Source: a virus. From it: 64,000 nt of DNA. The translations under genes were made by a program, and so were the position numbers. The stretch spans positions 1 through 64,000 of the IMG/VR virus record IMGVR_UViG_3300028840_001395, one strand, 5' to 3'. Positions within the stretch are counted from its first letter, which is position 1. Each line of letters begins with the position of its first letter. The notes below the pieces were generated by a model that saw only the letters and a program-made list of their open reading frames with translations, ran no database searches and was not told the origin of the DNA. Shown in pieces: positions 4,704 through 31,415 of this stretch.

Positions 4704-6335
4704 CTACTCGGCGGAGCCCTTGACGCCGAAGACGCTGCTCACGTCCGGCTCGGAGTCCCAGAGCTGCGACAGCTCGTTGACCTCGTTGCCCCCGGCGGGG
4801 GCGGGCTGGACGTGCCCGACCTTGGCGACGCCCTTGGACGCCTTCTTGGGCTGCGGGCGCTGGGTGGCCTTCTTCTTGCCGCCCTCCTTCTCGTCCTTGT
4901 CCTTGGCCTCTTCCTCGTCCTCTTCCTGGATGGTCTCGGCGGCCTCTTCCTCGGCCTCCTCCTCATCCTCCTTCTTCTCTTCCTCGTCCTCGGACTTCTT
5001 GGACGCGACGCGCTCGATGTCGCCGCCGAAGATGTCCATCAGGAGCGAGTCGTCCTCGGTGATGACCGAGTCCTCGGTGGCCAGGCCCATCGGGTCGCCC
5101 TGCATCGAGAACATGTCGGCCTCGACGCTGGACTCCTTGTCGGAGTCCTCATCGGCCTCCTCGTCCTGGTCGTCGTCGCCGTTGTCGTCGCCGTTGTCGT
5201 CGTCCTCGTCATCCTCGGACTTCTTCTTGGCGGCCTCCTTGTCGGAGCTGTCGTCGTCCTCGTCATCCTCGGACTTCTTGGCGGACATGATCTCCATGCC
5301 CTCCTCGATCATCTCCTCCATGCCCTCGACGCCATCGTCCTCGTCCATCATCTCGGCCAGCATGGCGGCCTCGTCCGGATCGAGGTCGGTGTAGAGGTCA
5401 TCGACCATCACGTCCTGGGCGTAGAAGGAAGCGACCACCTCATCGCGGGCGATGATGCCGTCACCGTCGGTGTCGAGGCTGGCGAACACGGCCTTGCTTC
5501 CGCGCCACTCGTCCTGGCTGACGAAGCCATCGTTGTCCGTGTCGAACTGGTCGAACATCACGGCGATGGGGTTGTCCGGGCTGGCGGTGTGCTCGTCCTT
5601 CGCGGTCGCGGCACCCTCGGCACGCTCCTGCTCCTCGGTCTGGGGCTTGGGAGCGAGGGTGTCACCCTTGGGGTCGTTCTGGTCGGCGTTCTTGAGACCC
5701 TTCACCTCGGCGGTGAGGGCTTCGAGCTTCGCCATCACGGACTCGGCGGAGTACTTGGGGCCGCAGGCCATCTCGACGTCCTCCTCGACCTCGACCTCCT
5801 CGTCGTCCTCGGCCAGAAGCGCATCGACCATCTCGTCCTCGACCATGACCTCATCGTCCAGCATCAGGTCATCCTGGGCGAGGAAGCCGCCACCGAGGCG
5901 CTCCAGGGTCTTGTTGAGCTGCTCGTCGGGCATGTCCATGTAGTCGAGGGCCTGGTCCTCGACCATCTCGGTCGAAGCCTCCTTGCCCAGCGTGTGGCGG
6001 GCGAGGCGGATGCACTTGTCGGCCTTCTTGACGACCTGGGCGCGGAGGCTCTTGGCCGACTTCGGCAGGCGCGGCTGACGCTTGTGCGCCGGGTGATCCT
6101 GATCCTCGACATCGTAGCCAGGGTCTGCCGGAGGGTTGCCGTCCGGATAGGGCGGCGGATGGACATCCTCGGCCCACGAGGACGTGTCACCGTTCTCGTA
6201 CTGGCTGGCCTCGGGGTCCTCCTGGGTGTGCGCCGGGTGGCCCTGATCCTCTGTCCCGTAGCCAGGGGTTGCGGGCGGAGCAGACGCCTTGCGATCTGTC
6301 GCCTGCCGCCTCGTCATGCGGTTACGCTTGCTCAT
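4704..6335 (-). CDS. Acidic scaffold/prohead-core-like protein with two EF-hand calcium-binding loops
   Basis: A 543-aa, very acidic protein between protease and capsid genes, the usual place for a scaffolding or core protein. Residues ~1-90 are Pro-rich with two near-repeats (PGYGTEDQGHPAH and PGYDVEDQDHPAH). Residues ~90-150 form a basic helical domain. Two canonical EF-hand loops follow: DTDNDGFVSQDE (~265-276) and DTDGDGIIARDE (~288-299), both with Asp at 1, 3 and 5, Gly at 6 and Glu at 12. The rest is highly charged Asp/Glu/Lys helix, probably coiled coil, ending in a Pro/Lys-rich tail. Calcium binding is a confident inference from the loops; the scaffold role is inferred from charge and synteny. 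Start ATG 6335 has AAGGAGGAG and overlaps the protease gene by 14 bp. Confidence 0.75.
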   Translation of the reverse strand: MSKRNRMTRRQATDRKASAPPATPGYGTEDQGHPAHTQEDPEASQYENGDTSSWAEDVHPPPYPDGNPPADPGYDVEDQDHPAHKRQPRLPKSAKSLRAQVVKKADKCIRLARHTLGKEASTEMVEDQALDYMDMPDEQLNKTLERLGGGFLAQDDLMLDDEVMVEDEMVDALLAEDDEEVEVEEDVEMACGPKYSAESVMAKLEALTAEVKGLKNADQNDPKGDTLAPKPQTEEQERAEGAATAKDEHTASPDNPIAVMFDQFDTDNDGFVSQDEWRGSKAVFASLDTDGDGIIARDEVVASFYAQDVMVDDLYTDLDPDEAAMLAEMMDEDDGVEGMEEMIEEGMEIMSAKKSEDDEDDDSSDKEAAKKKSEDDEDDDNGDDNGDDDQDEEADEDSDKESSVEADMFSMQGDPMGLATEDSVITEDDSLLMDIFGGDIERVASKKSEDEEEKKEDEEEAEEEAAETIQEEDEEEAKDKDEKEGGKKKATQRPQPKKASKGVAKVGHVQPAPAGGNEVNELSQLWDSEPDVSSVFGVKGSAE

Positions 6336-7950
6336 GGTCTCCTCCTTGAGCTTCCCTTGACCCTCCCGAGGCCCTTCCCCTGGAGAGCAACTTGCTTAGA
6401 CGAAGAATAGTCTTGGATTCAGAAAGCGACGGCTCACGACCCATCGCGGTCGCACAGGCGCTCCTGAAATCCTCGACGGTGCGGTACTTGGTGTGGCGGC
6501 CAACTTCGAGGGCCACCCTGTAGATCGGAACGGGCACCTGGATGCCCGCACGAGCGTTGAACGAAGCCACGGCCTCCAGAAGCTCCACATCAGACCTCGC
6601 GGTCTTGGCCAGAGCATCCAGGCCAGCCAGGTAAGCCCGGCGGATTCTGGTGTTGGCCTCCTTGACCACGTTGTCATTGGGGGCCATCGAGGAATCTTCC
6701 AGGGCTTCGTCCACCGTGTCCTGGCGGAGCTTGTCCTTGATACGGGTCTTCACCCGGTCGAGAACGAACTGCTCCAGCTCCTGCTCGACATCTTCGAGCG
6801 GGGCCTTCGGTTCCTCCGCCTCGTCACCACCCTCATCTTCACCACCCTCGTCCTCGTCCATCCAGCCCGAGAGGAAGCCGTTGGCCTGGATCGGGTCGGT
6901 GATGGTGAACTTCTGACGGGCGGGGGTCTCGAACGTGGTTGAGATGATATCGGCACCCTTGGATGCCTGGCTGGCAAGCTGGGCGTCGCTCTGGGCCACT
7001 CGATCAGGAATGACAGCATCCGAGAATCGAGTGGGGACGACGCCTTCGGCCAGGTTGGCAGCCTTGAGCTGAGCGTCCGGCGACCACTCGGGCGGCGGAC
7101 TGGCCAGAACCTTGGCTGCCCGGCTGGTGATCTCCGGCGTCGGCTCCAAGATGTTTCGCATGACCGCGCCCGTGAAGGCCGGGACACCGACCCAGGAACC
7201 CTCCACGAACATCACGCCGCCCGTGGGGTCGAGATCCTGGTGCCCACACAGCTCCGCGATGAGGTGGCGTCCGCCCTGCTCATCGAAGAAGGTGTTGCCC
7301 TTCATATACTTGATATGAGGGCACATCTCGGTTTCGTCGGCTGCCCAGTGACCACACTTGGTGCAGATGGTGCCATCGACGGTGCAGCCCATTGACAGGG
7401 TGCCCATCTTGCCGTTCTCGATGGCCTTGATCAGCTCGGTGTGCTTGCGGTCGGTGGCGATGAGGATATCCACGTAGATCGAGTCCCCGATGTCGCGTGC
7501 GACGGCATCGATGATGCGACCCTTGGACAGCTCCTCGACCTGGACGTGCTCCACGAAGTTGTGGGCACCCACGAACGTCGGGTACGCCTTGGCCAGAACA
7601 TCACGGTTCCAGGCGTCCTTGTTGTTGTTGATGTACTTCTGGGTGCCCGGCGTGATGCGGAAATCCGGGTAGCGCAGATCCACCTTGAACCCATCCACGA
7701 CCTGGGAGCCCCTCTTGGTTCCCGGCGGAGTCACCGAGTCCACGGAGGCGATGATGGTGGCGTGGGTCAGGAGGAAGTCCTTGGGGCTGAAGGGCTTGGA
7801 GAAGAACTCGGAAGCCCGCTCGATGAGGTTGTCCTTCAACCCCTCTGCGGCGATCTTGGTGCCCTTCCCGGCGACCCGGATGTTCGCCCACTGGGTCTTG
7901 CTCACCGAAGGGTGAACCAGATGGGCGTCAGCGGTCTTGGGCATCGCCAT
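6322..7950 (-). CDS. Putative prohead (capsid maturation) protease with zinc-ribbon insert
   Basis: The 542-aa protein probably processes head proteins during capsid maturation. Residues ~50-260 carry a conserved-looking core: HATIIASVDSV, then DLRYPDFRITPGTQKYINNN, PTFVGAHNFVEHVQ, LSKGRIIDAVARD, VDILIATDRKHTELIKAI and KMGTLSMGCTVDG. The core His (GAHNF) and Ser (TLSMG) are candidates for the catalytic pair of phage serine prohead proteases. A zinc ribbon (CTKCGHWAADETEMCPH) is inserted straight after the Ser motif. The C-terminal third is acidic then helical, perhaps its own scaffold-like part. The start is taken at ATG 7950, overlapping the upstream stop as TGATG; an upstream extension in this frame is unlike coding sequence. 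Order portal, protease, scaffold, capsid supports the call; family membership is not certain. Confidence 0.65.
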   Translation of the reverse strand: MAMPKTADAHLVHPSVSKTQWANIRVAGKGTKIAAEGLKDNLIERASEFFSKPFSPKDFLLTHATIIASVDSVTPPGTKRGSQVVDGFKVDLRYPDFRITPGTQKYINNNKDAWNRDVLAKAYPTFVGAHNFVEHVQVEELSKGRIIDAVARDIGDSIYVDILIATDRKHTELIKAIENGKMGTLSMGCTVDGTICTKCGHWAADETEMCPHIKYMKGNTFFDEQGGRHLIAELCGHQDLDPTGGVMFVEGSWVGVPAFTGAVMRNILEPTPEITSRAAKVLASPPPEWSPDAQLKAANLAEGVVPTRFSDAVIPDRVAQSDAQLASQASKGADIISTTFETPARQKFTITDPIQANGFLSGWMDEDEGGEDEGGDEAEEPKAPLEDVEQELEQFVLDRVKTRIKDKLRQDTVDEALEDSSMAPNDNVVKEANTRIRRAYLAGLDALAKTARSDVELLEAVASFNARAGIQVPVPIYRVALEVGRHTKYRTVEDFRSACATAMGREPSLSESKTILRLSKLLSRGRASGGSREAQGGDHEQA

Positions 7951-8549
7951 CAGAGCGCCTCCAGCAGATCGGGGTCGGGCTGGAACTCCACGTAGGACGG
8001 ATCTCCCAGAATGTCCTCCCGCTTGATGAGGAACAGGCAGTTCCCGCATCCCAGCAGGGGGACACTCTGTCCGCTGCGCCGCTTGTAGATGGCCTTCCTC
8101 AGTGCCTCCTGCTTGCACTTGGGGCACAGGTAGCTGCCGGAGTCCAACTCCCCCTGCGTCGCCTTGTACTGCCGGTCGGCAGAAGCCCAGTAGATGGCCT
8201 TCTTGACGAAGGCTCGGGCCACCCGCTCACGGGTGTTGTGGTCAGACGAAGTGTGGGGGAGCTTGTCGGGGCCACCAGGGACATCCACCGTACCTGCTCC
8301 ACCGGGGATGTTGTCGTCCCCGACCTCGGGGGGCTGGTAGTCCTTGGACTCATACCGCTGGAGATCCTCGACAGCCATACGGGCGGAACCTGTGGAGAAC
8401 TCCACATCCACCATGCCGATTGCAGGCCAGACGGCCTGCACTCTCCCGCTCTGGGCCGCGTGCTCCAGGATGGGATACACGATGTCCCCGACCTGGAACT
8501 CCTTGGCCCGGCGCTGGTAATCGACGTATGCCTGCTTGGTCTTCGGCAC
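7950..8549 (-). CDS. Hypothetical protein with SH3/KOW-like N-terminus and C-terminal zinc ribbon
   Basis: 199 aa in two parts. Residues ~15-70 (FQVGDIVYPILEHAAQSGRV, VWPAIGMVDVEFSTGSARMA) read as a small beta-barrel of SH3/KOW type. After a Gly/Pro linker and a helix (RERVARAFVKKAIYWASADR), the C-terminus has a four-Cys zinc ribbon: CPKCKQEALRKAIYKR, then CGNC. It is coupled to the protease gene. A nucleic-acid-binding or head-assembly role is possible but unproven. The REVA-type helix RERVARAFVKKA resembles the short basic tag found in neighbouring virion-cluster proteins. Confidence 0.7.
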   Translation of the reverse strand: MPKTKQAYVDYQRRAKEFQVGDIVYPILEHAAQSGRVQAVWPAIGMVDVEFSTGSARMAVEDLQRYESKDYQPPEVGDDNIPGGAGTVDVPGGPDKLPHTSSDHNTRERVARAFVKKAIYWASADRQYKATQGELDSGSYLCPKCKQEALRKAIYKRRSGQSVPLLGCGNCLFLIKREDILGDPSYVEFQPDPDLLEAL

Positions 8550-8567: not shown

Positions 8568-9269
8568 CTACGCGGTCAGGACGTAGCCGTGGGAGGCCTT
8601 CTTCTCCTTGGCCTCCTCTTCCTTCTCTTCCTGCATGGACTTGGCGGCCTCCTCCTCGGAGTCGTCGGCGGCCTTCTTCTTGCCGCCTTCCTTCTCGTCG
8701 CCGTCGTCCTTGTCCTTGGCCTCTTCCTTCTTCTTCTCGATGTTCTTCAGGAACTCGGGAGGAAGATCCTTCTTGGCCTGGCGAACGACGGTCGCGGCGA
8801 GGTTGAGCGCCTTCTCGACCTGGGCTGCGGCCTCCTTGGGGAGGTCACCCTCACCGATGGCGGCAGCGAGGCCACCGAGGGCAGCCTGGACGCCGGGGCG
8901 CGGGGCCTGGGGATCGGTCGTGATGCGGTCGGGGCCGATCTCGCCGCCCTGCTGCTTCTCGCGCAGCTCGCGGTTCTCCTGCTGCGAGAACTCGCCCTTC
9001 ATGTAGGCCTCATCCGGCTCGTCCTCCAAGGGACCGGCCTTCTCACGCCCGATGTCGTCGGGGTCGAAGCCCTGCTCCTTGACGACATCATCGCCGGTCA
9101 GTGCGACCTTCTCCAGATGATCGGAGAGCATGTCACACCGCAGCGAGAAATCGTGAGCGATCCGCTTCTCGACCCCGAGGGTCTGGAAGTCCACCTCGAA
9201 CAGGTTGGCGAGCCGATCCAGGTCCGCTGTCACGGCCTGTGCGCCCTTCTTGGTCAGCTTCTGGGTCAT
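8568..9269 (-). CDS. Hypothetical charged helical protein in the head cluster
   Basis: 233 aa, mostly helical and highly charged. The N-terminal ~60 residues (TADLDRLANLFEVDFQTLGV, IAHDFSLRCDMLSDHLEKVA) could be a folded helical bundle. A Gln/Arg/Pro linker follows, then an Ala-rich helix. The final 70 residues are Lys/Glu repeats resembling the C-terminal third of the EF-hand scaffold-like protein (both contain EKEGGKKKA). That shared segment suggests relatedness or a common partner in the prohead. The start ATG 9269 overlaps the giant protein's stop as ATGA; an earlier in-frame start would overlap more and lacks a better ribosome site. Confidence 0.7.
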   Translation of the reverse strand: MTQKLTKKGAQAVTADLDRLANLFEVDFQTLGVEKRIAHDFSLRCDMLSDHLEKVALTGDDVVKEQGFDPDDIGREKAGPLEDEPDEAYMKGEFSQQENRELREKQQGGEIGPDRITTDPQAPRPGVQAALGGLAAAIGEGDLPKEAAAQVEKALNLAATVVRQAKKDLPPEFLKNIEKKKEEAKDKDDGDEKEGGKKKAADDSEEEAAKSMQEEKEEEAKEKKASHGYVLTA

Positions 9270-12200
9270 CGTCTGGTTCCTCCTCCGAGTTCCATCCGTG
9301 GAAGCTCTGCTTGGGCACACACTTGCCCTTCGCTTATAAGGTTCCACGTATAGAAAGAAGATTGAAAAACTTTGGGCGAAGATGCGAAACTTTGAGCCTC
9401 TTTGCCCTGCGACTTGTACTTCTTGTCGAGATTCCCGATGTCCTGTTCCTCGACCGTATCTCGAATTTGTGCCCCCGTCAGAGAGTCCGGAGCAGGTTCA
9501 CCTATGATCTCACGGGCAATATCCTGGGCAATCTCGACCTGCTGGACACGAGCCTTGTTCGAGACTTCGTTGCACTTATTGATCTTTTCCGGGTCACCCT
9601 CGGCATCTGCCAGGCACTTCATCAGCTCCTTCTGGATCTGGGCGAACCGCTTATCGTTCCGCAGCGCCCCCTGGGCCGACTTGACCTTTTCGTCAACCTC
9701 ATCCTGGTCGTCGGTGCCATTCTCCCCCTTCCGGGCCGTCTCGGTCAGGAAAGCGTGGATCGTGGTCATCCCGTCCAAGTGGAGGTCTTTCAGCATATCG
9801 GTCAGAACCTTGGCGGACTGCTTGTCCTCGTCCTCATCCGAGGAAGCCTTCTCCTTGATCACCTTGATCATGTCCTTGTAGGGGCCGTTTTCACCCCCTA
9901 CCAAGGAGTACAGCTCATCGTCGGACACCTCTGACATCACCCCCTGTACAAGTTCCCGGCCAGCCGGGCTGTGGAACTCATCCGTGGACATCCCGACGAG
10001 CTTCATCGCCTCGCCCTTCTTGTGAAGGGCCTTGACCAGGGCCTTCATCTCATCGGCGGGTTCCTCCCGGAGGGGGGATATCTTCTCGTCGTTGACCAGG
10101 GCGGCCATCGCCAGGCCATTGGCGATGTTCTGTAGCTCCGCGAACTTGTTCTCATCATCCGTATCTTCGAGCAGCTTCTCCATCTGGGCGATGGCAGCCC
10201 CTCGAAGTTCGGGGGTCATCTTGGAGTACTCCTGGAACGCCTGCTCGGTACGCTGGCGGAGAGCATCCGCGTCCTTGGGCTGGTCGTTGACCTTGGTGCC
10301 TCCAACCAGGGTGGGGTTGGAAACAACCTTCCTGGCCAGCGTCTTGGCAGCGAGGGCCTTGGCGCTGTCCCGGAGGTTCATCCCCTGGCCGAAAGTGTCC
10401 TTCTTCAGCGCCTTGGTGGCCTCTGCGATGGTCTTGTCGGAGAGAGCGTCCCCAGAGAACACGCCCGTCTTGAGCTTCTCAAGCTCATCGGCGTAGGCCA
10501 TGAGGATGGCCCGCTTGTCCTCGTCGCTCTCGACACCCTTGAGTTCCGCCGCGAAGTTGGTATCCCCGACCTGGCGGGCCACGTTGTCGATCTTGTCGAT
10601 GTCCGCCTGGAGCTTCTTCTTCTCGGCCTCGGCCTTCCGCTGCTCAGCCTCTTCCTCAAGGCGCTGCGCCTTCTGGGCGAGGGTTTCTTCCTCAACCTCG
10701 GTCTTCTCATCGGGTGTCAGAGGCTCTCCCTTGGCCTTCTCGGCATCAGAGAGAGCCTTGGACTTCTCAGCCAGGCTGAGACTGACTTCCTCATCCCCCT
10801 TGCCCTTTTCGGCATTCCTCTCATCTGCATCGTCAGGATCGAGCTTGCCCGCAGCCATCGCAGCGGCATTCGCCTCATTCTTGGCGTGGCTATACTCGCC
10901 ATCGGGGAGTCGGAGCCCCCACTCGCCGTTCTCCTTCTGCCAGTAGTCGCCGGGCTTCTTATCCTTGCTGTCCTCGGGAACCTTCCCGGCCAGCCGGTCG
11001 AGCCAGCGCATGGCAACCCGCTTGTAGTTGAGGGAGAGATCCTCGTCTGTGTCCGCCGTGCCGCCCTCGGTGTCCTCATCCCCCATGTCCACCCGCTTCT
11101 TCTTCAGATCCTTGCGGGGTGGCTTGAACTTCGGAGCGGGCTTGACGAGATCCTCGACAGCCTCATCTTCCTTCTCGGCGTGGGTCTTGGTGGCGCGGCG
11201 CGTCATGTAGGTGTGGCCCGGACCCTTGCCCGTCTCCACGAAGCCTCGCTGCTTGAGCATCCTCACGGCATGGGGATTCACGGCATCGAGGCAGAACTTG
11301 ATGTCTGGGAACGGATCGGTCAGGTCATCGTAGTTGCTGATGGCGATGTCCATCAGCTTGCTGCCCAACGCCTTGCGCTGCCAGGCGGGGTCCACCACGA
11401 TGTCGAACTCGTAGCACTCCCGGTCACCAGAATCCGACGAGTCGAACAGAGCTGCCACAAGCTGTCCGTCAACCTCGTATCCGGCTACCCAGTCCTGGTG
11501 AGACAGGACACGGATGCCTACCCGCTGTGCGAGATCCCACGGGTCGGAGCCACGAGGGATGCGCCAGACGAGCTTCGGGGATCCTGCGGTGAGGATGTCC
11601 TCGAACTCCTGGCGGTAGCGGTCGATGATCTCGATGACCTCTGCGAAGCCACCCCCTGCAGCCTGCTTGTCCAGCTTGGTCTTGACCTGGCCCGTCGCCA
11701 GGAAGGTGTCTTCGAGGCCCGGAACGAGATACTGGCTCTTGAGGGTCGAAGGCTCGTGGCCGACCTCCTTGGCGGTCTCTTCCAGAGCCTTCTTGAACTC
11801 CTCCTTGAACTTCTTCTCGCGTTCCTTCTTGTCGTCCGGGGCTGGGTTGCCCTTGTTCCGGATGGCCTTGAGCTTGTTCTGCATCACCCGGTTGGCGTGC
11901 AGCCCCCGGATGTCCTTGGCCGTGATATCCATCGGCTTGAGGTAGTCGTTGACCGTGGTGGAATCGACCTTCACGTCGTCCACCTCGAACACCGGATCGG
12001 TGCCGGACTTGTCCTTGACGGCCTCCCGCAAGACCCGGACGATATCCGGGTCACGGGTCTCCTTCTTCTGGCTCACCCCGGACTTGCCGACGTACTTGAT
12101 CGTGGCCTTGTCCTTACCCACCGTGACGTGCTTGGCCTGCCAGCCGGTGACACCGAAGTGACCTTCCTTGGCCGAGTCGGGGTTGCCCACGCGCTCGTAG

Positions 12201-15200
12201 GTGTCATTGATGAGACCCACAGCCAACGCCGTGAGACGGGTCTTGAGGTCGTCAGAGGACAGATCCTTCTTGACCTTCTTCTGGAGGTCACCGAGCTTCC
12301 CACGGAGCTTCTCGACCCGCTTGGCCTTCTCCCGGTTCCGATGCTGAACCTGGCCTTCCGAATACTCGTAGACTGTGGTGGTGCCCTTGCCGTCCGCCTT
12401 GGGCACTTCCTTCTTCTTCTGGTACTTGGCGGCTACTCGCTCCGCCGGAGTCGCGTTCGGGTGAAGCTCCCGCCACCGCTCGTAGGGAGTCACATTGTCG
12501 CAGTCCGTGGACTCCTCACCGTAGGGGGACTCGATCTCGATGTCCCCGACGCACTCATCGGTCGTCTCCAGAACCTCGGCCCAGACGTACTCGGGCTCGC
12601 CGGTCATCGGCCCGAACACGGCACGCTCACCTTCCTCGAAGGCTTCGCCGTCAGCGGCCATGCGGGAGGCGAAGCGGTCAGCCACGTTCTCGACCAGCGG
12701 GGCGTCGCTGATGAGGAGAGGCACCGAATCCTCGGGGATGACCCAAGAGCCGATCTCCTTGCCATCCTCATCATCGAGTTTCAACTCGGTGTACTTGACG
12801 TTAGCTGCAGCCCGCTTCTTGCGAGGTCTCTTACGGGGTTTCTTGCGGGGCTTCGGCTTGGGCTTGTCCTCGTCGCCTCCGCTTCCCCAGATGCGCTCGA
12901 AGTCCTCCAGATGCTCTTCGGGCAGCTTCTTCATCACGGCCAGCGCAGAGGCATCGCAGAAGTGCTCCTGGGGATGGGTCGATGAGTAGGGCGTCGGGTA
13001 GTTCTTGTTCGCCCGTGCTGACCGGAGCAGCACCTTGCGGATCTCATGAATGGGGATGGGGAGCACCCTGTCCTGGTTCGGAACCTGGAACCAGTAGTTT
13101 TGGTCGTCCATCTTCTCCACGAAGAACGGCCCCTTGATGCGGCGCATCCTGATGGGAAGCTCATCACCCACACCCGGCATCTCGATCTCGGGGGTCTTCT
13201 GACCCACCCGGATGTGGTGCATCTCCCACTCACGCTGGGCCTTCTTGTCCCCGAACTTCTGCCACCACCGATGCGACAATTCGTGGATGATGTTGTGAAC
13301 CACATCCATGTTGAACCGGGCGAAAGGCCGGATATACATGTCGTCCCGCTTGCCGTTGTACCAGGCCATTGTCTTGGCTTGCTGTAGCTGCGGGACGATG
13401 AACACGTCGCCGTAGAGGGTCTTCTTCAGAGTCGCCGGAACCTTGGCTGCCCGGATGAGCTTCGCGGCCTTGTTGATCGTCTTCTTGACGTTCTCCAGCT
13501 TCTTGCCCGTCAACCCCATCGTGTTGTGAACCATGAACGGGCCGAGCTTGAACTTCTCCTCCGTCCCCTCCACCTTGTCGCGCCAGTGCTGGGTCGCGTT
13601 GAGGAAGTCGATGTGCCGCTGGGTCTTCTCCATCCACGGCCCGAACTTGATCGGCATCCGGCGGGCGGACATGAAGTGCCGGGCCGCCAATTCCAGACCC
13701 TTGTGCTTCTTCGCTGGGACGTGCTTCAGGTCGAGCACGCCTTGGGCCACATTCCGGCCATGAACGACGAGCCAACCCCAGGGATTCTTGAGTTGCCTCT
13801 TGATATGGCGATTCTGGAGGGCCTCGGGAGGCACCTGGCGAAGAACGTCTTTCAGGGCCTTCCAGAGTCCCATCAACTCCTGATAGGAATTGGCCAGGTC
13901 TGCGGGGGTTGTGAGCGTCGCCTGCTTCTGGTATCGGAGGGCTACCCGCTCGGCAGATGCCTGCTTCTCCTCGGGCCACGGCTCGGGAGCCGGGCGGATC
14001 TTGAACAGCTTGAGTTCCTTGTTCTGCTTCCGGCCCTTGGGGTAGGGCTCGACCGTGACCACCACATCGCCTTTCGAGTCGGTCTTGAAGCCCTTGATCT
14101 TGCCCTTCTTGTTCTTGTACTTGCCGTAGAGAACCGAGTCTCCGATGTTCAGCTTGAATGTGGCTGCGATCTTCCCACCCTGCACCTCCGAGGGCACCTG
14201 GTAGTAGACGATATCGTCCTCATCGCGCACGTTCAGCCGGTGCGGGGTCTTCTTGAGCATCGAGACCCCCTTCTCGAAGGGAATCATCTTGGCGTTCTTC
14301 AGCACCACATCCCTGTTCCAGACCACCTCCTCGGGATACCCATACTTGGGCACCGTGGGAGTCTGGAACGTGATGGCAACGAGCTTCTCGCCCATCTCGG
14401 GCTTGATGTGCGTGGTCTGCACTCTGGGAACGAAGTGCCCCCAGCGGGACGACACGGCGGTCACGTTGTCCGTCCCGAACTTCTTGTATGGGGGCCTCAT
14501 CTTGAGCTTGCCGTCAGCCAGAATCAGGCGTGCCCGGCGGTTGGTCGTGAAGTGGACGAACGCATCGTCCTTCACGTCCATCAGGTAGTGGGTGTGCTGG
14601 TCTTGAATCGGCGTTCCCAGCCACACCATCCACTCGGGATGAGCCTCGGGAGCCCCTCGGAGGGCCATCTTCGTTCGCCCCCACTCACTGGCATCATCGA
14701 ACATCACAATGAACTCAGGCTGACCGCGAAGTGCCCCCGTGCGCCCCCCGCCCAGCGCCTGACGCACCTTCTTCTCCAGACGACGTGGATTGGCAGCCAG
14801 CACAGGGTCAATCAGGAGAGCCTGGCGGGCGGCCTCGGTGATCTTCTGGAACTCCTTGCCCGTCAGTCCGAACTCCGAAGCGAGTGCCCTCATGTCCATG
14901 ACCTTGCCCGGCTGGGCCAGGACAGCAACGAAGGCATCGGACTCATCGGCGCTCATCTGGACGGTGATCTCGCGGACACGCTGCCGCTGCCGGGCATCGA
15001 GGAACCCCAAACGCTTCCCGGTGGGCATACCCAAGTCCATCAGGTCGAACAAGGTCGCCAGGTCAGCCTTCTTCTCGGCCCAGTTGCCCAGTGCCGAGGC
15101 GAAGCCCTTGTCCTTGCGGGCGATGTCCTTGACCACATCGAGGAGACCCAGGCGCTTCATCTCCAGCAGGGCCTTCTTGCCCACTCCGCCCTCATAGAAC

Positions 15201-16693
15201 GTGTCGATGATCATGTTCGACAGGTGGGACGGCGGGACGTTCTGGAGCTTCTGCCTGTTCCGCTTGATGGAGGCTTCCACGTCCGGGGCGATCTTCAGGC
15301 CATACTTGAGCAAGAACTTGATGGCCCTCACCATCCGGCTCGGGTCGTCCGCGAACACCTTGTCAGGGTTCTGGGGGCACCGGGCAACGCCCTCCTGCAA
15401 GTCCCGCAGGCCACACCCCGTCAGGTCGATGATCTCGGCCTTGTCCGGCCCCTTGGCCAGGTCGAGCAGCCTCCACATCAGCGTGTTGAACGTGAACTCC
15501 CGACGAATCACGTCCTCCTCGATGGTCGAGGGCTCGACCATGTGGGGCTTGTAGCCCTTCCCGGCCTGACCGCCGTAGCTCTCCTTGCGGGCGTTGGCGA
15601 TCTCGATGACCTCACCGTCGAGGTTGGCCCCTCCGACCTCCCAGTCGCCCTTGATGGTCAGGATGGCCACGCCGTAGTTGTTCGTGGTCAGATTGGTCGG
15701 GACAGGAATCGCCCTCTGGAGCTTCTTGGCGAACCACTCCGAATCACGACCAGCCGCGATGGAGTCAATCACCACGTCGATGTCCTTGATAGGCTGGTTG
15801 ATCACGAAGTTGCGGACGGCTCCACCCACGACGTAGGTGTCCTTGGCGACCCCGAGCTTCCGGGCCACGTCCGAGAGGAACTTCATCAGCGCCCGGCTGG
15901 CCTGGTCGGTCATCTCGGACAGGTGTGTCGAAGCCACTCGATTGGCAGTGGCACTGCCAAAAGGAATGGTCTGGAGCTTCGGGAGCCCCCAGACCTCGAT
16001 GTTATCGAACTCCCAGTCGCCTTGGGGCACATCGCCCTTGTAGACCGCCGTGAGGCCGTCCAGGTAGGCCAGAGTGACGTGGGGGCGGTAGATGAGCGGG
16101 AACTTGTCGTCCACCCGAAGGCCTGCGTCAATGAGCTTGTCGCGGAGCTTCCAGCGAATCCCGGCCATGTCGTGACTGTAGCGGATGCCCATCAGGGCGA
16201 CCCTGCGGCCCTTGTCGGGATGGACGAAGTATTCGGGGCCTTGGAGATGGGCTCGAACGGGCTCCCGGATCTCCGCGAAAGCCTCCCGCGAAGCGTTGAG
16301 GAACGCTTCTTCCTGGTCTGCCGGGACGTTCCCGACGTAGAGGAATGTGGCGTGGGGCTTGGACTTGTCCTCGTCGCCCAGCGGGGGGAACTGGCCTGCA
16401 AGCTCCTTCGGGACAGGGATGAAGAATCCGACCCCGGTGCGGTCGCCGGTCTTCTTGCCGTCCTGGGAGTCGGCCTTCTTCTTCGGCTTTGCCGGATCCT
16501 CGCCGTACTTCTTGCCGACCTGGCCGCCCTCGACCTCGCGGTGCTTGACGATATCGCCCTCGTGCTCCTTGCTCCAGGACTTCCAGTGCTTGTCGCAGAA
16601 CCAGGCCCGGCCCCGGCCCTCGGCCCAGACACACTCATGGGTCGGGGGCTTGCTGCATTCCATGCACTTCGACATGGAATGGCGGCCAGCCAT
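9266..16693 (-). CDS. Giant 2475-aa polyvalent protein: zinc finger, 2H phosphoesterase, CCA-adding-like nucleotidyltransferase, ART-like, zincin, topoisomerase IB, GNAT
   Basis: One uninterrupted frame. A Cys/His finger (residues ~10-40) leads. A 2H phosphoesterase follows (~88-250) with HAT at 114-116 and HVT at 205-207. A class II nucleotidyltransferase/poly(A)-polymerase head and RNA-binding region (~265-640) shows VVGGAVRN, DID (304-306), IEEDVIRREFTFNTL and DDPSRMVRAIKFLLKYG. A possible ADP-ribosyltransferase-like region (~655-815: VHFTTNRRARLIL, TDNVTAVSSRWG) is uncertain. A zincin (HELSH 1137-1141) precedes topoisomerase IB (~1430-1665), whose five catalytic residues are visible: Arg1501, Lys1537, Arg1596, His1646, Tyr1655. 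A GNAT domain (~1690-1825) and a ~600-aa charged helical tail complete it. Short RVAxRY tags mark several boundaries. Lying between portal and protease, it may be packaged and injected. ATG 16693 has GGAG spacing and abuts the upstream stop. Confidence 0.88.
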   Translation of the reverse strand: MAGRHSMSKCMECSKPPTHECVWAEGRGRAWFCDKHWKSWSKEHEGDIVKHREVEGGQVGKKYGEDPAKPKKKADSQDGKKTGDRTGVGFFIPVPKELAGQFPPLGDEDKSKPHATFLYVGNVPADQEEAFLNASREAFAEIREPVRAHLQGPEYFVHPDKGRRVALMGIRYSHDMAGIRWKLRDKLIDAGLRVDDKFPLIYRPHVTLAYLDGLTAVYKGDVPQGDWEFDNIEVWGLPKLQTIPFGSATANRVASTHLSEMTDQASRALMKFLSDVARKLGVAKDTYVVGGAVRNFVINQPIKDIDVVIDSIAAGRDSEWFAKKLQRAIPVPTNLTTNNYGVAILTIKGDWEVGGANLDGEVIEIANARKESYGGQAGKGYKPHMVEPSTIEEDVIRREFTFNTLMWRLLDLAKGPDKAEIIDLTGCGLRDLQEGVARCPQNPDKVFADDPSRMVRAIKFLLKYGLKIAPDVEASIKRNRQKLQNVPPSHLSNMIIDTFYEGGVGKKALLEMKRLGLLDVVKDIARKDKGFASALGNWAEKKADLATLFDLMDLGMPTGKRLGFLDARQRQRVREITVQMSADESDAFVAVLAQPGKVMDMRALASEFGLTGKEFQKITEAARQALLIDPVLAANPRRLEKKVRQALGGGRTGALRGQPEFIVMFDDASEWGRTKMALRGAPEAHPEWMVWLGTPIQDQHTHYLMDVKDDAFVHFTTNRRARLILADGKLKMRPPYKKFGTDNVTAVSSRWGHFVPRVQTTHIKPEMGEKLVAITFQTPTVPKYGYPEEVVWNRDVVLKNAKMIPFEKGVSMLKKTPHRLNVRDEDDIVYYQVPSEVQGGKIAATFKLNIGDSVLYGKYKNKKGKIKGFKTDSKGDVVVTVEPYPKGRKQNKELKLFKIRPAPEPWPEEKQASAERVALRYQKQATLTTPADLANSYQELMGLWKALKDVLRQVPPEALQNRHIKRQLKNPWGWLVVHGRNVAQGVLDLKHVPAKKHKGLELAARHFMSARRMPIKFGPWMEKTQRHIDFLNATQHWRDKVEGTEEKFKLGPFMVHNTMGLTGKKLENVKKTINKAAKLIRAAKVPATLKKTLYGDVFIVPQLQQAKTMAWYNGKRDDMYIRPFARFNMDVVHNIIHELSHRWWQKFGDKKAQREWEMHHIRVGQKTPEIEMPGVGDELPIRMRRIKGPFFVEKMDDQNYWFQVPNQDRVLPIPIHEIRKVLLRSARANKNYPTPYSSTHPQEHFCDASALAVMKKLPEEHLEDFERIWGSGGDEDKPKPKPRKKPRKRPRKKRAAANVKYTELKLDDEDGKEIGSWVIPEDSVPLLISDAPLVENVADRFASRMAADGEAFEEGERAVFGPMTGEPEYVWAEVLETTDECVGDIEIESPYGEESTDCDNVTPYERWRELHPNATPAERVAAKYQKKKEVPKADGKGTTTVYEYSEGQVQHRNREKAKRVEKLRGKLGDLQKKVKKDLSSDDLKTRLTALAVGLINDTYERVGNPDSAKEGHFGVTGWQAKHVTVGKDKATIKYVGKSGVSQKKETRDPDIVRVLREAVKDKSGTDPVFEVDDVKVDSTTVNDYLKPMDITAKDIRGLHANRVMQNKLKAIRNKGNPAPDDKKEREKKFKEEFKKALEETAKEVGHEPSTLKSQYLVPGLEDTFLATGQVKTKLDKQAAGGGFAEVIEIIDRYRQEFEDILTAGSPKLVWRIPRGSDPWDLAQRVGIRVLSHQDWVAGYEVDGQLVAALFDSSDSGDRECYEFDIVVDPAWQRKALGSKLMDIAISNYDDLTDPFPDIKFCLDAVNPHAVRMLKQRGFVETGKGPGHTYMTRRATKTHAEKEDEAVEDLVKPAPKFKPPRKDLKKKRVDMGDEDTEGGTADTDEDLSLNYKRVAMRWLDRLAGKVPEDSKDKKPGDYWQKENGEWGLRLPDGEYSHAKNEANAAAMAAGKLDPDDADERNAEKGKGDEEVSLSLAEKSKALSDAEKAKGEPLTPDEKTEVEEETLAQKAQRLEEEAEQRKAEAEKKKLQADIDKIDNVARQVGDTNFAAELKGVESDEDKRAILMAYADELEKLKTGVFSGDALSDKTIAEATKALKKDTFGQGMNLRDSAKALAAKTLARKVVSNPTLVGGTKVNDQPKDADALRQRTEQAFQEYSKMTPELRGAAIAQMEKLLEDTDDENKFAELQNIANGLAMAALVNDEKISPLREEPADEMKALVKALHKKGEAMKLVGMSTDEFHSPAGRELVQGVMSEVSDDELYSLVGGENGPYKDMIKVIKEKASSDEDEDKQSAKVLTDMLKDLHLDGMTTIHAFLTETARKGENGTDDQDEVDEKVKSAQGALRNDKRFAQIQKELMKCLADAEGDPEKINKCNEVSNKARVQQVEIAQDIAREIIGEPAPDSLTGAQIRDTVEEQDIGNLDKKYKSQGKEAQSFASSPKVFQSSFYTWNLISEGQVCAQAELPRMELGGGTRR

Positions 16694-16694
16694 C

Positions 16695-17666
16695 CTAGCT
16701 CCAGGAAACGACTTCAAGGGGCATCCCTTCCCAGACTCGACCCTCATAGAGCCTCATCAGCTTGTCCAGGAACCACTCGTGGGATGCCGGATCCCACGGG
16801 GCATTCCCATCCGCACCGGGCCAATCCGGATTCTGGACAGCGAACTGACCCTCCCGTGCCCCGCCTCGCCCCAGCGTTCGGGGGAGCATGTAGATGCTGT
16901 ACCCCTCGTCCTGGGCGATATCCTTCAGATATCGGTATAGATACGGAGCTTCCGGGCTGTCCCTGAAAGCTCCCTCGATGACGATAGGGACTCCGGGAGG
17001 CACGTCATCCTGCACGTTGATGGTGATGGAACCCTCTGGAACACGGGCCTTGATATACTTGGAGGCCACACGCCTCGATGTCCGCATCTGGAGGATCTTC
17101 CCCGCGTCCTCCTGGGCAAAGTGCCACATGGACTGGACGGTGGAGGCAAACGCCGAGTATAGCTCCTCGGCTGACCTCTCCTGCCCATGACAGGTGACAT
17201 CCGGGTCGTCACAGTGCCGGGCGTTCCGGTAGTCCAGATACATCTGGGCCAGCTCGTCCCGCTTCGCTTTCGGAAGGGCCATGAGGGACTTCATCGGGAC
17301 GCCCAGGATCTTGACCGCCTCATCCACCCACTCGTTCTTGGGCCAGCACACGGGGTTCTTGTCCTCGACACACCTGAAAACGAACTCGAAGACCGCCCGA
17401 AGCTCCTCGGGTTGAGCGGGCCGACCCCAGACGTAGCGGTAGGACTGATCGATGTCCGCCAGGACATCTCCCATCATGTCGGCAGGGCCATCCCCGTTGT
17501 ATAGCTCGGTGCCGTCGTATCTGCCGGGCGGCTCGACATGAGCACCAGGTTCGCCCGGCTGGATAGTCCACCAGCCCGCTGTCCGCTCCAAGTGCGCGAG
17601 AACCTTACGCATCTGGCTTCGGGCTGCGACTTTCTGGGACAGGATCTGGCGCACGCGGGCCTCCAT
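16695..17666 (-). CDS. Hypothetical protein between portal and polyvalent genes, with RVA-type basic tags
   Basis: 323 aa, no family recognised. The N-terminus is a basic amphipathic helix (RVRQILSQKVAARSQMRKVL). A helical domain with several Trp and Cys follows (YRYVWGRPAQPEELRAVFEF, HCDDPDVTCHGQERSAEELY). A second tag RRVASKYIKARVP lies near residue 195, and then a mixed alpha/beta domain (SITINVQDDVPPGVPIVIEG, YLYRYLKDIAQDEGYSIYML). The C-terminus abuts the giant polyvalent protein. The tag shared with that protein suggests a common location, perhaps inside the head; this is inference. Confidence 0.7.
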   Translation of the reverse strand: MEARVRQILSQKVAARSQMRKVLAHLERTAGWWTIQPGEPGAHVEPPGRYDGTELYNGDGPADMMGDVLADIDQSYRYVWGRPAQPEELRAVFEFVFRCVEDKNPVCWPKNEWVDEAVKILGVPMKSLMALPKAKRDELAQMYLDYRNARHCDDPDVTCHGQERSAEELYSAFASTVQSMWHFAQEDAGKILQMRTSRRVASKYIKARVPEGSITINVQDDVPPGVPIVIEGAFRDSPEAPYLYRYLKDIAQDEGYSIYMLPRTLGRGGAREGQFAVQNPDWPGADGNAPWDPASHEWFLDKLMRLYEGRVWEGMPLEVVSWS

Positions 17667-17703: not shown

Positions 17704-19401
17704 CTAGAAACGACCGCCCTCTTCCTCCGGCTTCTCGTACTTGAGCCCGAGGTTCTCGGCAATCTTCTCCGCAGCGTCCGAATTCTCGGCCAGAGCGTCG
17801 CCCGTCCGGCTGTAGATGCCACGGAGAGCCTCGTTGAACGTCGCGTCCTTGAGGGTGAACAGGTCGCGCTTGAGCTTCTCGTCCACCGTGTCCGGGTCGA
17901 GGTTGAGCAGGTCGAGGATGGTGTCGATGTCCAGCGACCCCTTCTGGTAGAGGTTGAACAGGGCATCGAACGTATCGCTGTTGTCCCGCAGAGCCAGGCG
18001 AGTGAACGAGAGCCGGGGGACGATGACTTCCAGATTCCCGTCCTCGTCCTCCTCCACGAAGCCCATTCGGCGGCACATCGGCTTGAAGAAGCCGTCCTCC
18101 ACCAGGTCTTGGAACAGCTCCCGCATGAGCATGTAGCGGGTGTTGATGACTTCCAGGTGAATCCGGTCGCCCGAGTAGGACGACTCGCCCGACAGAAGGC
18201 TCTCGGTCACGCCCAGGCCCGCATACATCTGCCGGTCGGTGAAGTCCCAGACCCACGACCAGTCGGGAAGCCGCTGGTCTGCTCCCATCTCTTCCCAGTT
18301 GACCTGGAAGTTGGTGATGATGGAGTAATCCGGGTCTTGCAGAGCGAGATCGACCTGCTCCCGAAGCTCCTCGGTCTGTTCCTCGTTCATGTCCTCGGCG
18401 TAGACGAGCCGGTAGGGCGTCATGTGCCGGGAAGCGATGGACGTGAGGCTCTGACGCACCTTGTCACGGAATACCAGCGTCCTCATGCACCGCTGGAGGA
18501 TGCTCTGACCCCGATCCTCGTAGTCCGCCCGCTTCCGCTGGAGGCAGTAGAGGTAGGAGCCCGCGTCAGGGTCCATGTTCAGCGGGATGTTCTCCCCCGC
18601 CTTGATGGACGCCACAACGCCCTCGGGCATCGAGTTGACGATACGGATGGCCTGAGCATCACCCTGCTCGGCCTTCTCGATGATGTTCTTCGTCTTGCTG
18701 TCGGGGATGAGTTCGACCAGCTTCTCATCGGTGAACGGGAAGCTCTCCATGTGGATCTGCTCGGGAGGGAGCACACGGATGGCCGTCCAGCCCTTGTAGT
18801 TCTTCTTCAGCCAGGCAACCTCGCGCTCATCGGCATCCTCGTAGACCTGCCACTTCTCGACGGTCTCGCCCTCGGCGGTGATCTCTCGGATGCACTCCTC
18901 ACGGATCTCGCGGGGCATCTCCGGCGACGTGTCCTCGCAGAAGATGTTGGCCTCGCCCAGCAGGTTGTAGTCGTGGCTGATGCTGATGAGCCGGTGCAGC
19001 AACTTGATGTTCTTCGCCCACCGCTCACAGAACCGCAGGGCCTTCTTCCCTAGCTCCTTGTCCTTGCACTTGGGCGGGGCCAGCCGGAGCTTCGACAGCG
19101 GCAACTCAGTGTGAAGATCGACCGCCTGACCGACGAAGGGCTCGTACTTGTAGAAGAATCGGTAGAAGTTCCGCTGCTCATCGATGCTCTGGGGAAGCTC
19201 AAGGAAGTCCGTGGACAGCTCGGGCGAATACCAGTTGCCGCCCATTCCCAAGACGGTCTGGCCACCGGCACCCCAGACCGAAGCGTTCTTCATCTTCATG
19301 GCGGAGGTGACAATCTTGCTGGGCTTGCCAACCGTGACGTTGCCCCTGACGGGCTTCATCTCTGCCACCTTGATGGTGTGCTCTGGGTCGTTCTTCGTCA
19401 T
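17704..19401 (-). CDS. Portal protein
   Basis: 565 aa, a usual portal length. The dodecameric portal sits at the capsid vertex and is the DNA channel and motor dock. Supporting features include the N-terminal MKMKNASVWGAGGQTVLGMG with NFYRFFYKYEPFVGQAVDLH, typical of portal clip/wing starts. The core has LISISHDYNLLGEANIFCED and WTAIRVLPPEQIHMESFPF. The long stem/crown helices are RSQ-type (ILQRCMRTLVFRDKVRQSL), followed by MYAGLGVTESLLSGESSYSG and the INTRYMLMRELFQDLVEDGF helix. It lies downstream of TerL with two tiny genes between, the standard order. Start overlaps the upstream gene as ATGA. Confidence 0.88.
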   Translation of the reverse strand: MTKNDPEHTIKVAEMKPVRGNVTVGKPSKIVTSAMKMKNASVWGAGGQTVLGMGGNWYSPELSTDFLELPQSIDEQRNFYRFFYKYEPFVGQAVDLHTELPLSKLRLAPPKCKDKELGKKALRFCERWAKNIKLLHRLISISHDYNLLGEANIFCEDTSPEMPREIREECIREITAEGETVEKWQVYEDADEREVAWLKKNYKGWTAIRVLPPEQIHMESFPFTDEKLVELIPDSKTKNIIEKAEQGDAQAIRIVNSMPEGVVASIKAGENIPLNMDPDAGSYLYCLQRKRADYEDRGQSILQRCMRTLVFRDKVRQSLTSIASRHMTPYRLVYAEDMNEEQTEELREQVDLALQDPDYSIITNFQVNWEEMGADQRLPDWSWVWDFTDRQMYAGLGVTESLLSGESSYSGDRIHLEVINTRYMLMRELFQDLVEDGFFKPMCRRMGFVEEDEDGNLEVIVPRLSFTRLALRDNSDTFDALFNLYQKGSLDIDTILDLLNLDPDTVDEKLKRDLFTLKDATFNEALRGIYSRTGDALAENSDAAEKIAENLGLKYEKPEEEGGRF

Positions 19402-19736: not shown

Positions 19737-19990
19737 TTCGGCCCCCACTTGTGCTTCTTGGTCATCTGGCCCTTCTCGTAGGCGGCCTTGAGCACCTTCT
19801 TGAGCTTCCGGATATCGGTGGGGGAGCCCTTGAAAACCCGCTCCCACGACCCTCCGGCTCGCACAAACACGTCGGAGATCAAGCTGAACTCCTCCGGCAC
19901 GTATTCTACCTTACCCTCCAAGGTCGAAACTGTCAGCTTCTTGATGAACCGATGGTCGGCCCGAACAGGGCTACGGGGGTCAATGTCCAT
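19733..19990 (-). CDS. Small hypothetical protein after the terminase gene
   Basis: 85 aa: an acidic-basic N-terminus, a short beta region (KKLTVSTLEGKVEYVP), and a basic helix ending KKVLKAAYEKGQMTKKHKW. Start and stop overlap both neighbours by 1-4 bases (TGATG and GTGA), so it is translated with TerL and the portal set. No family recognised. Confidence 0.6.
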   Translation of the reverse strand: MDIDPRSPVRADHRFIKKLTVSTLEGKVEYVPEEFSLISDVFVRAGGSWERVFKGSPTDIRKLKKVLKAAYEKGQMTKKHKWGPK

Positions 19991-21864
19991 CAGCGCCTCC
20001 CCCGAATCCGACCATGTGCGATGGGGGACCTCTGCCGATCTGGACTCGTGCCCAGCTTACGGGCGTTCAGCCGGGCCTTTCTCATGGCCGACTGCATCTG
20101 CTTCTGTCCTCGGATAGCCCCGGAGCGACCTCCCGTGTGGACACCCGTGATGTAGCGAGTGTTGCCGAGATTCTTGCTGGCGAGCCAAACCATACGGACG
20201 ATTGCGTCCGAACGGTCATCATGCTTTCCATCCACGTTGGGCGCAGCCACGGTGGTCACGTACTTGGAGTGATACTGGGCCTGCAGCTCCAGCATCTCCT
20301 GGATATAGTCGCAATGTTGCTTCCCGGCATCCTGTGGGATGGGCCAGTCATACAAGACCAGCCGCTTGTCCCACATCATGTCCTTGAAGTTGCGGAAGAT
20401 CTCGCTGGTCAGGTTCTTCGTGAAGTGCTCAGACCGAAGCTGCTTGAGGCCCTTCTTTGCCAGTGCCTGCTCGAACGCGATGCCGGACCACTGATCGAAC
20501 AACCCCTCGGTCATGTAGAAGCGCCGGGAGTAGTTGAACACCCACTGGGCGACCTCATCGAAGTCCAGCCGGTCCACGTTCTCGTAGTCGCCCTCCCCGG
20601 CCTTGATCTGCTCCACCAGGTCGAGGACAATCTTGGCCTCCCCGTCAATCATCTCGATGTGGCCGATGGCGATGGCCGATGCGTCACCCACCAGGCCCAG
20701 GTCGATGCCGACGAAGTGGGGTCGCTTGGCCGGAGCCTGGGTCATCGGACGGTGGCTCGGGTCCACACACTCGATGAGGTCTGACTCTCGCTCGATCCAG
20801 CCCTTCGTCCGGTCGGAGAACTCGCCCCCGAACTCGGTGAAGAACACCACCGGGTCTTTGACGTACTTGCTCTCAAAGTAGCTGCGGGGGATGGTCGGGT
20901 TGACCTCCCAAGACGGTGCTTGGATTGCCAGCATGTCCTGTGAAGCCCGGCCCCCGGCCATCGCCATCTGGTAGAGCTTGTAGAACTGCCCCTGACGGCC
21001 CAGCGGGGACGAGATGGAGAGGATACGACCCTCGACGCCTCCGATGGGGACGGTCGAGTCGTTGGGGTCTTTCTGGGAGAAGGTCGCGGTCGAGGGCGTA
21101 ATGGCGTCGTACACCGCCTGGGCCGACGACTGCTGGGTGCCGTCCGTGAAGTGGGCAAGCTCATCCAAGATGATGATCATGTTGCCCGGACCACGAAGTC
21201 CCTTGGCGATGCAAGAGCGGAAGCTCACCCGAAGAGAAGCCCGTGCTCCAGGGTTGTCGCAGTAGCGACCCGAGTGGTCGATGTCCGCCGGGGTCTGGAA
21301 CCGGGCGTAGGTCTGGGTGTTGTTCGCCGTGTAGGGGGAGAAGAAACCGCACTCGCTGAAGTAGGCCGACACGTCCCGATACAGGATGCCCGCCTGATCC
21401 TTGTCGGTAGCAACGGAGATGATGCCGATCTCCTTGCCAGGCGGGATTCCGTAGTAGCCCTGTGGGTCACCCTTCAGAAGGAGCTTGTAGGTCTCATAGG
21501 CACCCACGGCAGCGGCCAGGTAGGTCTTGCCGGAACGGCGACCGATGACAAGGACAAGCTCGGGACGGTCGTGATCGACCTCCTTGATGTTGCTCCGGCC
21601 CTCGTTGAACAGGTACTCCAGATACTCGCGCTCGGTGAAGTGCCAGTAGCCCGAAAGCTGCCAGTCCTTCGCCACCTTGAACCGCTTCCTGTCATCCAGT
21701 TCGATGCCGTAGTGGGCCTTGAGGATCACGCGCTGGACGGGGAACAGGTGGAGATTGACACCCCACCGAGACTCGCAGAACTCGATGATATTGGCGATCT
21801 GGGAAGTCGCACCCTTGACCGTCTGGCCGACGTTCAGGGCGATGTCAGAAAGCCCGCTCCCCAT
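19990..21864 (-). CDS. terL: Terminase large subunit (packaging ATPase and nuclease)
   Basis: The 624-aa motor protein pumps and cuts DNA at the portal. Its ATPase domain has Walker A GRRSGKT (~108-114), Walker B MIIILDELAHF (~229-239) and a coupling motif-like ILSISSPLG. The C-terminal RNase H-like nuclease has its first acidic residue in FVGIDLGLVGDASAIAIGH and a late acidic pair in GKHDDRSDAIVRM. An insertion with Cys/His residues (ARASLRVSFRSCIAKGLRGP) lies before Walker B. The basic tail (RKARLNARKLGTSPDRQRSP) may bind DNA. Start ATG 21864 is 8 bp from the upstream stop. Confidence 0.95.
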   Translation of the reverse strand: MGSGLSDIALNVGQTVKGATSQIANIIEFCESRWGVNLHLFPVQRVILKAHYGIELDDRKRFKVAKDWQLSGYWHFTEREYLEYLFNEGRSNIKEVDHDRPELVLVIGRRSGKTYLAAAVGAYETYKLLLKGDPQGYYGIPPGKEIGIISVATDKDQAGILYRDVSAYFSECGFFSPYTANNTQTYARFQTPADIDHSGRYCDNPGARASLRVSFRSCIAKGLRGPGNMIIILDELAHFTDGTQQSSAQAVYDAITPSTATFSQKDPNDSTVPIGGVEGRILSISSPLGRQGQFYKLYQMAMAGGRASQDMLAIQAPSWEVNPTIPRSYFESKYVKDPVVFFTEFGGEFSDRTKGWIERESDLIECVDPSHRPMTQAPAKRPHFVGIDLGLVGDASAIAIGHIEMIDGEAKIVLDLVEQIKAGEGDYENVDRLDFDEVAQWVFNYSRRFYMTEGLFDQWSGIAFEQALAKKGLKQLRSEHFTKNLTSEIFRNFKDMMWDKRLVLYDWPIPQDAGKQHCDYIQEMLELQAQYHSKYVTTVAAPNVDGKHDDRSDAIVRMVWLASKNLGNTRYITGVHTGGRSGAIRGQKQMQSAMRKARLNARKLGTSPDRQRSPIAHGRIRGRR

Positions 21865-26296: not shown

Positions 26297-26351
26297 TCGT
26301 GCCTCCACACTTCTCCTACAGACTCCGACCTATAGAGTGAATATCAGAAAC

Positions 26352-31355: not shown

Positions 31356-31415
31356 AGCCCTCTCCAAAGCTCTACTCCTATGTACGCATAGGGCGATTAT
31401 CGACTGAGGAGGGGT

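Follow-up and report, generated by a model that had tools for sequence, protein, structure and literature searches.

A giant multi-enzyme gene among the head genes of a huge phage, and a short peptide shared by its linkers and the ends of other phage proteins

Introduction

Why should one phage polypeptide join enzymes for RNA ends, DNA topology, proteolysis and acetyl transfer, and what might hold such a set together? The question is raised by a gene for a giant protein of 2475 residues in the first 64 kb (the window) of IMG/VR record IMGVR_UViG_3300028840_001395, a bacterial virus record of 435,804 bases that corresponds to a huge phage of ∼436 kb. An initial annotation of the sequence described the product as a polyvalent protein that may be packaged into the virion. 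The inter-domain linkers of the giant protein contain copies of a motif, [SA]xRVAxR[YWF]L, termed the tag below; in the same clade it recurs at the very termini of dozens of further proteins. We consider it somewhat more likely than not that the giant is a head-associated polyvalent protein, the tag being a cargo tag for head loading and the giant a fused chain of tagged units. The tag is what is new here, and the enzyme set is unusual; the polyvalent class itself is known (PMC5512222).

The giant gene and its enzyme domains

The gene occupies a single frame with no internal stops:

9266..16693 (−), giant polyvalent protein gene, 2475 amino acids (aa), ATG at 16693, TGA at 9268-9266

The initial annotation was right about this open frame and its length, and left the strand unstated. 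The longest form of the frame (P0001, 16747-9266) encodes 2493 aa. The start at 16693 is preferred because a GGAG site lies 6 nt upstream and the codon adjoins, on the 3' side, the stop codon of the preceding gene, whereas the alternative ATG at 16747 falls inside that gene. Residue numbers given below are those of P0001, which exceed those of the initial annotation by 18. The GC content at third codon positions (GC3) is 0.78-0.91 except in the final ∼75 codons, where it falls. A frameshift close to the end of the gene might account for this drop but was rejected, as the closest relative, L006, ends similarly and the ATG of the downstream gene overlaps the TGA of the giant gene (ATGA). The frame is intact and its sequence bears no sign of a frameshift.

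The predicted modules, from the N-terminus, are as follows:

16484..16684 (−), zinc-finger-like N-terminal module, residues 22-88; C28, C31 and C51 invariant, position 54 H or C
15956..16459 (−), 2H phosphoesterase domain, residues 97-264; HAT 132-134, HVT 223-225
15131..15901 (−), nucleotidyltransferase of the class II CCA-adding/poly(A)-polymerase type, residues 283-539; GG308-309, R312, D322, D324, RREFTFN
14765..15124 (−), C-terminal extension of the nucleotidyltransferase, residues 542-661; kept together with it in relatives
14189..14590 (−), possible ART-like domain, residues 720-853; D728, H732, T734, R738, E806 and E807 invariant; weak Tox-ART-HYD1, DarT and Certhrax matches
13994..14164 (−), SH3/KOW-like small domain, residues 862-918; matches Spt5 KOW with a probability of at most 0.69
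12881..13792 (−), zincin-like domain, residues 986-1289; H1155, E1156, H1159, E1261
11666..12430 (−), topoisomerase IB domain, residues 1440-1694; R1519, K1555, R1614, H1664, Y1673
11198..11614 (−), GNAT acetyltransferase domain, residues 1712-1850; among relatives only in L008
10925..11194 (−), conserved charged linker module (KPPRxDL...DLSxNYKRVAxRW), residues 1852-1941; behind the portal gene across the clade
9524..10495 (−), conserved all-helical tail module, residues 2085-2408; behind the portal gene even where the slot holds none of these enzyme modules

The modules are present with their predicted catalytic residues retained. Pfam matches above the cut-off cover the topoisomerase (Topoisom_I, 3.2e-24), the nucleotidyltransferase (PolyA_pol, 1.5e-15) and the acetyltransferase (GNAT, 3.2e-5), and the matching PDB chains include bacterial poly(A) polymerases, CCA enzymes and topoisomerase 2f4q (1.8e-7). 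The five topoisomerase IB residues named by the initial annotation (Arg1501, Lys1537, Arg1596, His1646 and Tyr1655 in its numbering) are unchanged in 29 of 29 relatives. The nucleotidyltransferase has GG...DxD and RRxFTxN together with an RNA-binding part, and its GG, DxD and RR are invariant among relatives; between CCA-adding and poly(A) specificity, the sequence leaves its predicted class as CCA/poly(A)-type. The 2H domain matches 2_5_RNA_ligase2 (6.6e-6) at 26.7 bits, 0.3 bits short of the Pfam cut-off of 27, and both HxT motifs are unchanged in 24 of 24 relatives. The 2H, nucleotidyltransferase, topoisomerase IB and GNAT domains of the initial annotation are thus borne out.

Its zincin, finger and possible ART-like domain fared less evenly. 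The HELSH sequence of the zincin-like domain conforms to HExxH in all 10 relatives and the downstream Glu is present in 9 of 9, with weak profile matches to MPTase-PolyVal (0.009, two of the 10 relatives) and Peptidase_Mx1 (0.003). For the ART-like segment, three of eight relatives match Tox-ART-HYD1 (0.034), and DarT is matched at 0.12, all weakly. The modelled ART/SH3/zincin region (mean pLDDT 67.6) gave a weak match to the Certhrax ART (probability 0.35), and Foldseek did not confirm the zincin fold in it. Profile searches with the zincin and ART segments against PDB sequences returned no significant match, as did fold searches with the tail and with the ART/SH3/zincin segment. The tail model is all-helical (pLDDT 73.9). 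The invariant residues of the N-terminal module make a zinc finger likely.

A repeated peptide in the linkers

Five copies of the tag, two of them degenerate, divide the giant into finger and 2H; nucleotidyltransferase, ART-like and SH3; zincin-like; a short region; topoisomerase and GNAT; and tail:

15923..15940 (−), degenerate tag RVASTH, residue 270, linker from 2H to nucleotidyltransferase; score 13.0
13931..13948 (−), tag RVALRY, residue 934, linker ahead of the zincin-like domain
12671..12688 (−), degenerate tag NVADRF, residue 1354; score 10.9
12422..12439 (−), tag RVAAKY, residue 1437, immediately ahead of topoisomerase IB
11003..11020 (−), tag RVAMRW, residue 1910, end of the charged linker module

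The scores come from a position-specific scoring matrix (PSSM) of the tag, for which the best antisense score of 9.3 serves as the yardstick. The open reading frames (ORFs) of the window contain 10 coding-strand matches to the pattern [KR][VFIL]Ax[KR][YWMFH] and none on the opposite strand. In the ORFs of relatives, the pattern [KR][VI]Ax[KR][YWFH] occurs 130 times on the coding strand, against 10 matches after residue shuffling and eight on the opposite strand. The DNA form of the motif, counted in the phage's own genome, gives 24 coding-strand sites and two on the other strand (three and three for the reversed control). The motif is not clearly enriched over the reversed control in the outgroups phage G, Tunturi_5 and Rctr197k. 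Structure models place the tag in short isolated helices with low to moderate confidence.

Tag sites use all synonymous codons, and selection therefore acts on the peptide and not on the DNA; recombination repeats at the DNA level were rejected as a source of the motif on the same ground. A motif that lacks any targeting role, being no more than a helix cap or linker carried along when modules were shuffled, is very improbable. Some sites do move together with a module, for instance the one ahead of topoisomerase IB and the one that closes the charged linker, but module spread fails to explain a motif written in all synonymous codons at the ends of many proteins that share no other evident sequence.

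Position of the tag and the proteins that carry it

Tag positions were sampled in four phages, the present one and relatives of 536, 288 and 618 kb, in stretches picked by DNA pattern. Within 17 residues of a C-terminus lie 15 of 51 tag sites, where 2.6 are expected, a count equalled in none of 200,000 simulations. These C-terminal tags lie 8-17 residues from the protein end. A further 15 of the 51 sites follow soon after the start Met, and some proteins are tagged at both ends. The tag behaves as a modular terminal or linker peptide.

These positions bear on the suggestion of the initial annotation that the giant may be released by proteolysis. In such a scheme the giant would be a packaged polyprotein, and RVAxR[YWF] would be cleaved by the prohead protease or by its own zincin, freeing the enzymes during head maturation. 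The motif does lie between modules and a protease gene is nearby; internal proteins of giant phages are processed by the prohead protease, in SPN3US at A-X-E (PMC10052503), and self-processing by zincins of polyvalent proteins has been proposed (PMC5512222). Many small proteins, however, would lose no more than their last 8-17 residues by such a cut, which would achieve little, and the motif is basic and helical and differs from the A-X-E of SPN3US. No clear copy was detected in the portal, protease and capsid proteins; the protease and the major capsid protein, which are the usual substrates and in which a cleavage motif would be looked for, score at best 3.5 and 7.7, below the antisense best. 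Release by cleavage is therefore unlikely, and its proposal finds no specific support in a linker motif that resembles a targeting tag and also occurs near C-termini and after start codons.

Tagged proteins elsewhere in the window include the following:

25664..26308 (−), 214-aa protein with tags at the N- and C-terminus (QKVAARH, and RRVAHRYLQRSAS then stop)
31044..31367 (−), 107-aa protein with N-terminal tag MAKRVARRW
26352-27206, 284-aa protein that begins with a variant of the tag, MAALAQQIADRYQVRLAVR; proteins of L006, L009 and L039 begin similarly

A doubly tagged protein of ∼200-330 aa upstream of the terminase region is also found in L028, L065 and L077, and a conserved KTAGEVRF-like stretch then follows. 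In L072, the 2H domain is a standalone protein with its own C-terminal tag, and the giant has a degenerate tag at the matching junction of 2H and nucleotidyltransferase. Tag carriers with recognizable domains comprise HAD_SAK_1 RNA-repair phosphatases (in two phages) and C39 and WLM peptidases; others are SWIM-finger proteins, a ferritin-like protein and a second protein that combines topoisomerase IB with HExxH. The initial annotation had noticed neither the repeated motif, nor the conserved tail, nor this second topoisomerase IB protein.

The second topoisomerase IB protein, encoded elsewhere in the genome of this phage (1003 aa, L005:3026-6037, genome position 81-84 kb), has an HESQH motif and two tags, and its gene adjoins that of a HAD_SAK_1 phosphatase tagged at the C-terminus. 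The ferritin-like/DUF5856 protein (L158:3485-3994) ends in the C-terminal tag KIASRVASRYMK and recalls encapsulin cargo.

Among the proteins checked, the tag is absent from the clamp, clamp loader, UvsX, Dda-like helicase, ribonucleotide reductase and terminase. This absence is relevant to a further alternative, in which the giant would be a late intracellular multi-enzyme for packaging topology and tRNA maintenance, would not enter the virion, and the motif would direct interaction with or localization to an intracellular compartment. In favour of this, some huge phages construct compartments, DNA packaging might draw on a topoisomerase, and the giant is a putative virion protein. The untagged replication proteins speak against such a role, as does the position of the gene in the head cluster, which is kept across the clade. 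Import into a phage nucleus in particular is less likely because, besides the untagged replication proteins, nuclear import in Chimalliviridae is reported to proceed without conventional terminal signals (PMC13282480). We regard an intracellular role as improbable.

Relatives and the exchange of modules

A search of viral contigs with the whole giant protein found no relatives. Relatives were gathered instead through the portal, which was aligned with that of LR745208, a phage of 485 kb (65% identity); the alignment retrieved 80 portal loci from IMG/VR, several in records of 0.3-0.6 Mb. In many relatives the slot behind the portal gene contains the same modules in differing sets, orders and gene numbers. 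The same domain order, which the initial annotation had proposed to look for in large-phage genomes, is approached most closely by L006 (2103 aa: 2H, nucleotidyltransferase, SH3, zincin, topoisomerase, linker and tail); other relatives hold the modules in shuffled form. The slot of several phages has the charged linker and helical tail alone; the two thus make up the constant part, with the enzymes as exchangeable passengers.

Insertions affect the nucleotidyltransferase in some of these phages. A LAGLIDADG intein of ∼410-425 aa lies directly behind RREFTFN in L008, L017, L073 and L079; that of L073 matches the profiles Intein_splicing (2e-8) and LAGLIDADG_3 (1.7e-11). In L009 and L044, the head and the C-terminal part of the enzyme are in separate frames ∼0.8-1 kb apart, perhaps owing to an intron or insertion.

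Polyvalent proteins, surveyed by Iyer et al. in 2017 (PMC5512222), likewise join several unrelated enzyme domains in one polypeptide encoded among portal and terminase genes, and their inventory from phages and conjugative elements includes 2H, ART, GNAT, Pol-beta nucleotidyltransferase and zincin domains. The giant combines multiple unrelated domains and lies among head genes in a slot conserved in relatives. It is best read as a polyvalent protein with an unusual enzyme set, because the same slot in related huge phages holds shuffled modules around the conserved helical tail. The set differs from that survey, the text of which has 'topoisomerase' in one reference title only and 'cca' nowhere; a repeated RVAxR linker or terminal tag was not found in the parts of the survey covered. 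Topoisomerase IB is known from jumbo phages, and so is a CCA-type nucleotidyltransferase, each as a separate protein (PMC7824862). A search of open-licence papers, motif strings included, found no description of the RVAxR tag.

Two viral proteins offer closer comparisons. Rctr197k_045 (KX853510, 2175 aa) is also encoded in a terminase/portal region and shares a zincin module (28% identity over 309 aa) and a GNAT domain with the giant, but its gene is upstream of the portal gene and it lacks the topoisomerase, nucleotidyltransferase and tag. The 508-aa HAD_SAK_1 and topoisomerase IB protein of LR745208 occupies the same slot, with a topoisomerase 49% identical to that of the giant and the same linker module; unlike the giant, it has two enzyme modules only, a Swiss-Army-Knife RNA-repair phosphatase replacing 2H and nucleotidyltransferase. 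The nearest cultured portal relatives, Tunturi_5 and phage G, have neither the modules of the giant nor the tag around their portal genes, apart from one chance-level match in phage G. The text of the Tunturi paper contained no proteomics of virions.

Possible role in head loading

Head loading is the most economical function of the tag because the recognizable carriers resemble effector or repair enzymes and the giant lies in the head cluster. The initial view of a polyvalent and possibly packaged protein is the best reading of the place of the gene and its shuffled relatives, with packaging itself a presumption. In the proposed mechanism, linker and tail most likely anchor the giant in the prohead beside the portal, with the exchangeable enzymes strung N-terminal to them. 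Single tagged proteins would enter the head through binding of the tag to a head component, and the giant would amount to several tagged cargo units fused. Where host nucleases have cut tRNAs, 2H together with the CCA-type nucleotidyltransferase would mend the ends; topoisomerase IB may relax incoming or packaged DNA, and the zincin, ART-like and GNAT domains may modify or cut host proteins. Injection, and action ahead of any phage gene expression, as the initial annotation suggested, would be plausible. The most specific form of this proposal is that one position-independent tag of ∼10 residues loads dozens of enzymes into an HK97-fold head and that the giant delivers a kit for tRNA repair, DNA topology and proteolysis at infection; we offer it tentatively, as a possibility somewhat short of even odds.

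Known targeting peptides provide partial precedents. The capsid targeting sequence of the T4 internal proteins IPI-IPIII is also a peptide of ∼10 residues common to otherwise different proteins; it loads them into the prohead and is removed by gp21 (PMC9026906). Encapsulin targeting peptides, which mark the cargo of HK97-fold shells, are likewise short, terminal and borne by otherwise different proteins (PMC8229669), and the carriers here include a ferritin-like protein. Encapsulin peptides dock in a pocket on the inside of the HK97-fold shell. Dozens of different proteins are tagged here, in contrast with encapsulins, and the likeness is one of position and sharing, the carriers being putative cargo.

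Several points weigh against head loading. Packaging, a receptor and ejection into the host are all steps that we infer, and the enzyme targets proposed above are guesses. The tag may be N-terminal, C-terminal or internal, unlike the signal of T4, which is confined to the N-terminus. Few replication proteins were sampled for the tag, the majority of tagged proteins have no known function, and certain relatives (G002, G004) show the tag weakly or rarely. Fold searches with the tail returned no structural match, and the zincin and ART-like assignments, which combine invariant residues with weak profile matches, are themselves weak.

If the tag is a loading signal, the injected protein sets of uncultured huge phages would become predictable from sequence alone, and giant polyvalent proteins could be explained as having arisen when cargo proteins, each with its own tag, became fused. 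Judged by their enzyme set, such phages may arrive equipped for tRNA-end repair and for changing DNA topology, which would bear on how they survive host defences that cut tRNA.

Head-gene neighbourhood

The genes around the giant run on the minus strand in the order terminase, portal, 323-aa protein, giant, 233-aa protein, protease, EF-hand protein and capsid:

19990..21864 (−), terminase large subunit
17704..19401 (−), portal protein (phrog_16240, 1.8e-28)
16695..17666 (−), 323-aa protein between portal and giant; tag RVASKY mid-protein and a weak N-terminal tag
8568..9269 (−), 233-aa protein, next after the giant; its ATG and the TGA of the giant overlap (ATGA)
6322..8127 (−), prohead (head maturation) protease (phrog_18299, 2.8e-11), without tag
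4704..6335 (−), EF-hand protein between protease and capsid, without clear tag
2891..3766 (−), major capsid protein, HK97-type (phrog_2522, 3.7e-50), without clear tag

The order portal, giant, protease of the initial annotation holds, with the capsid gene following. Its placement of the giant directly next to the portal gene does not, as the 323-aa gene intervenes and the giant gene is one gene away. The protein encoded at 4704-6335 has an EF-hand-like calcium-binding motif and occupies the place expected of a scaffold. The portal protein shares 37% identity with its counterpart in Tunturi_5, a cultured phage of Acidobacteriota, and 23% with the one in Bacillus phage G, which hints at distant kinship.

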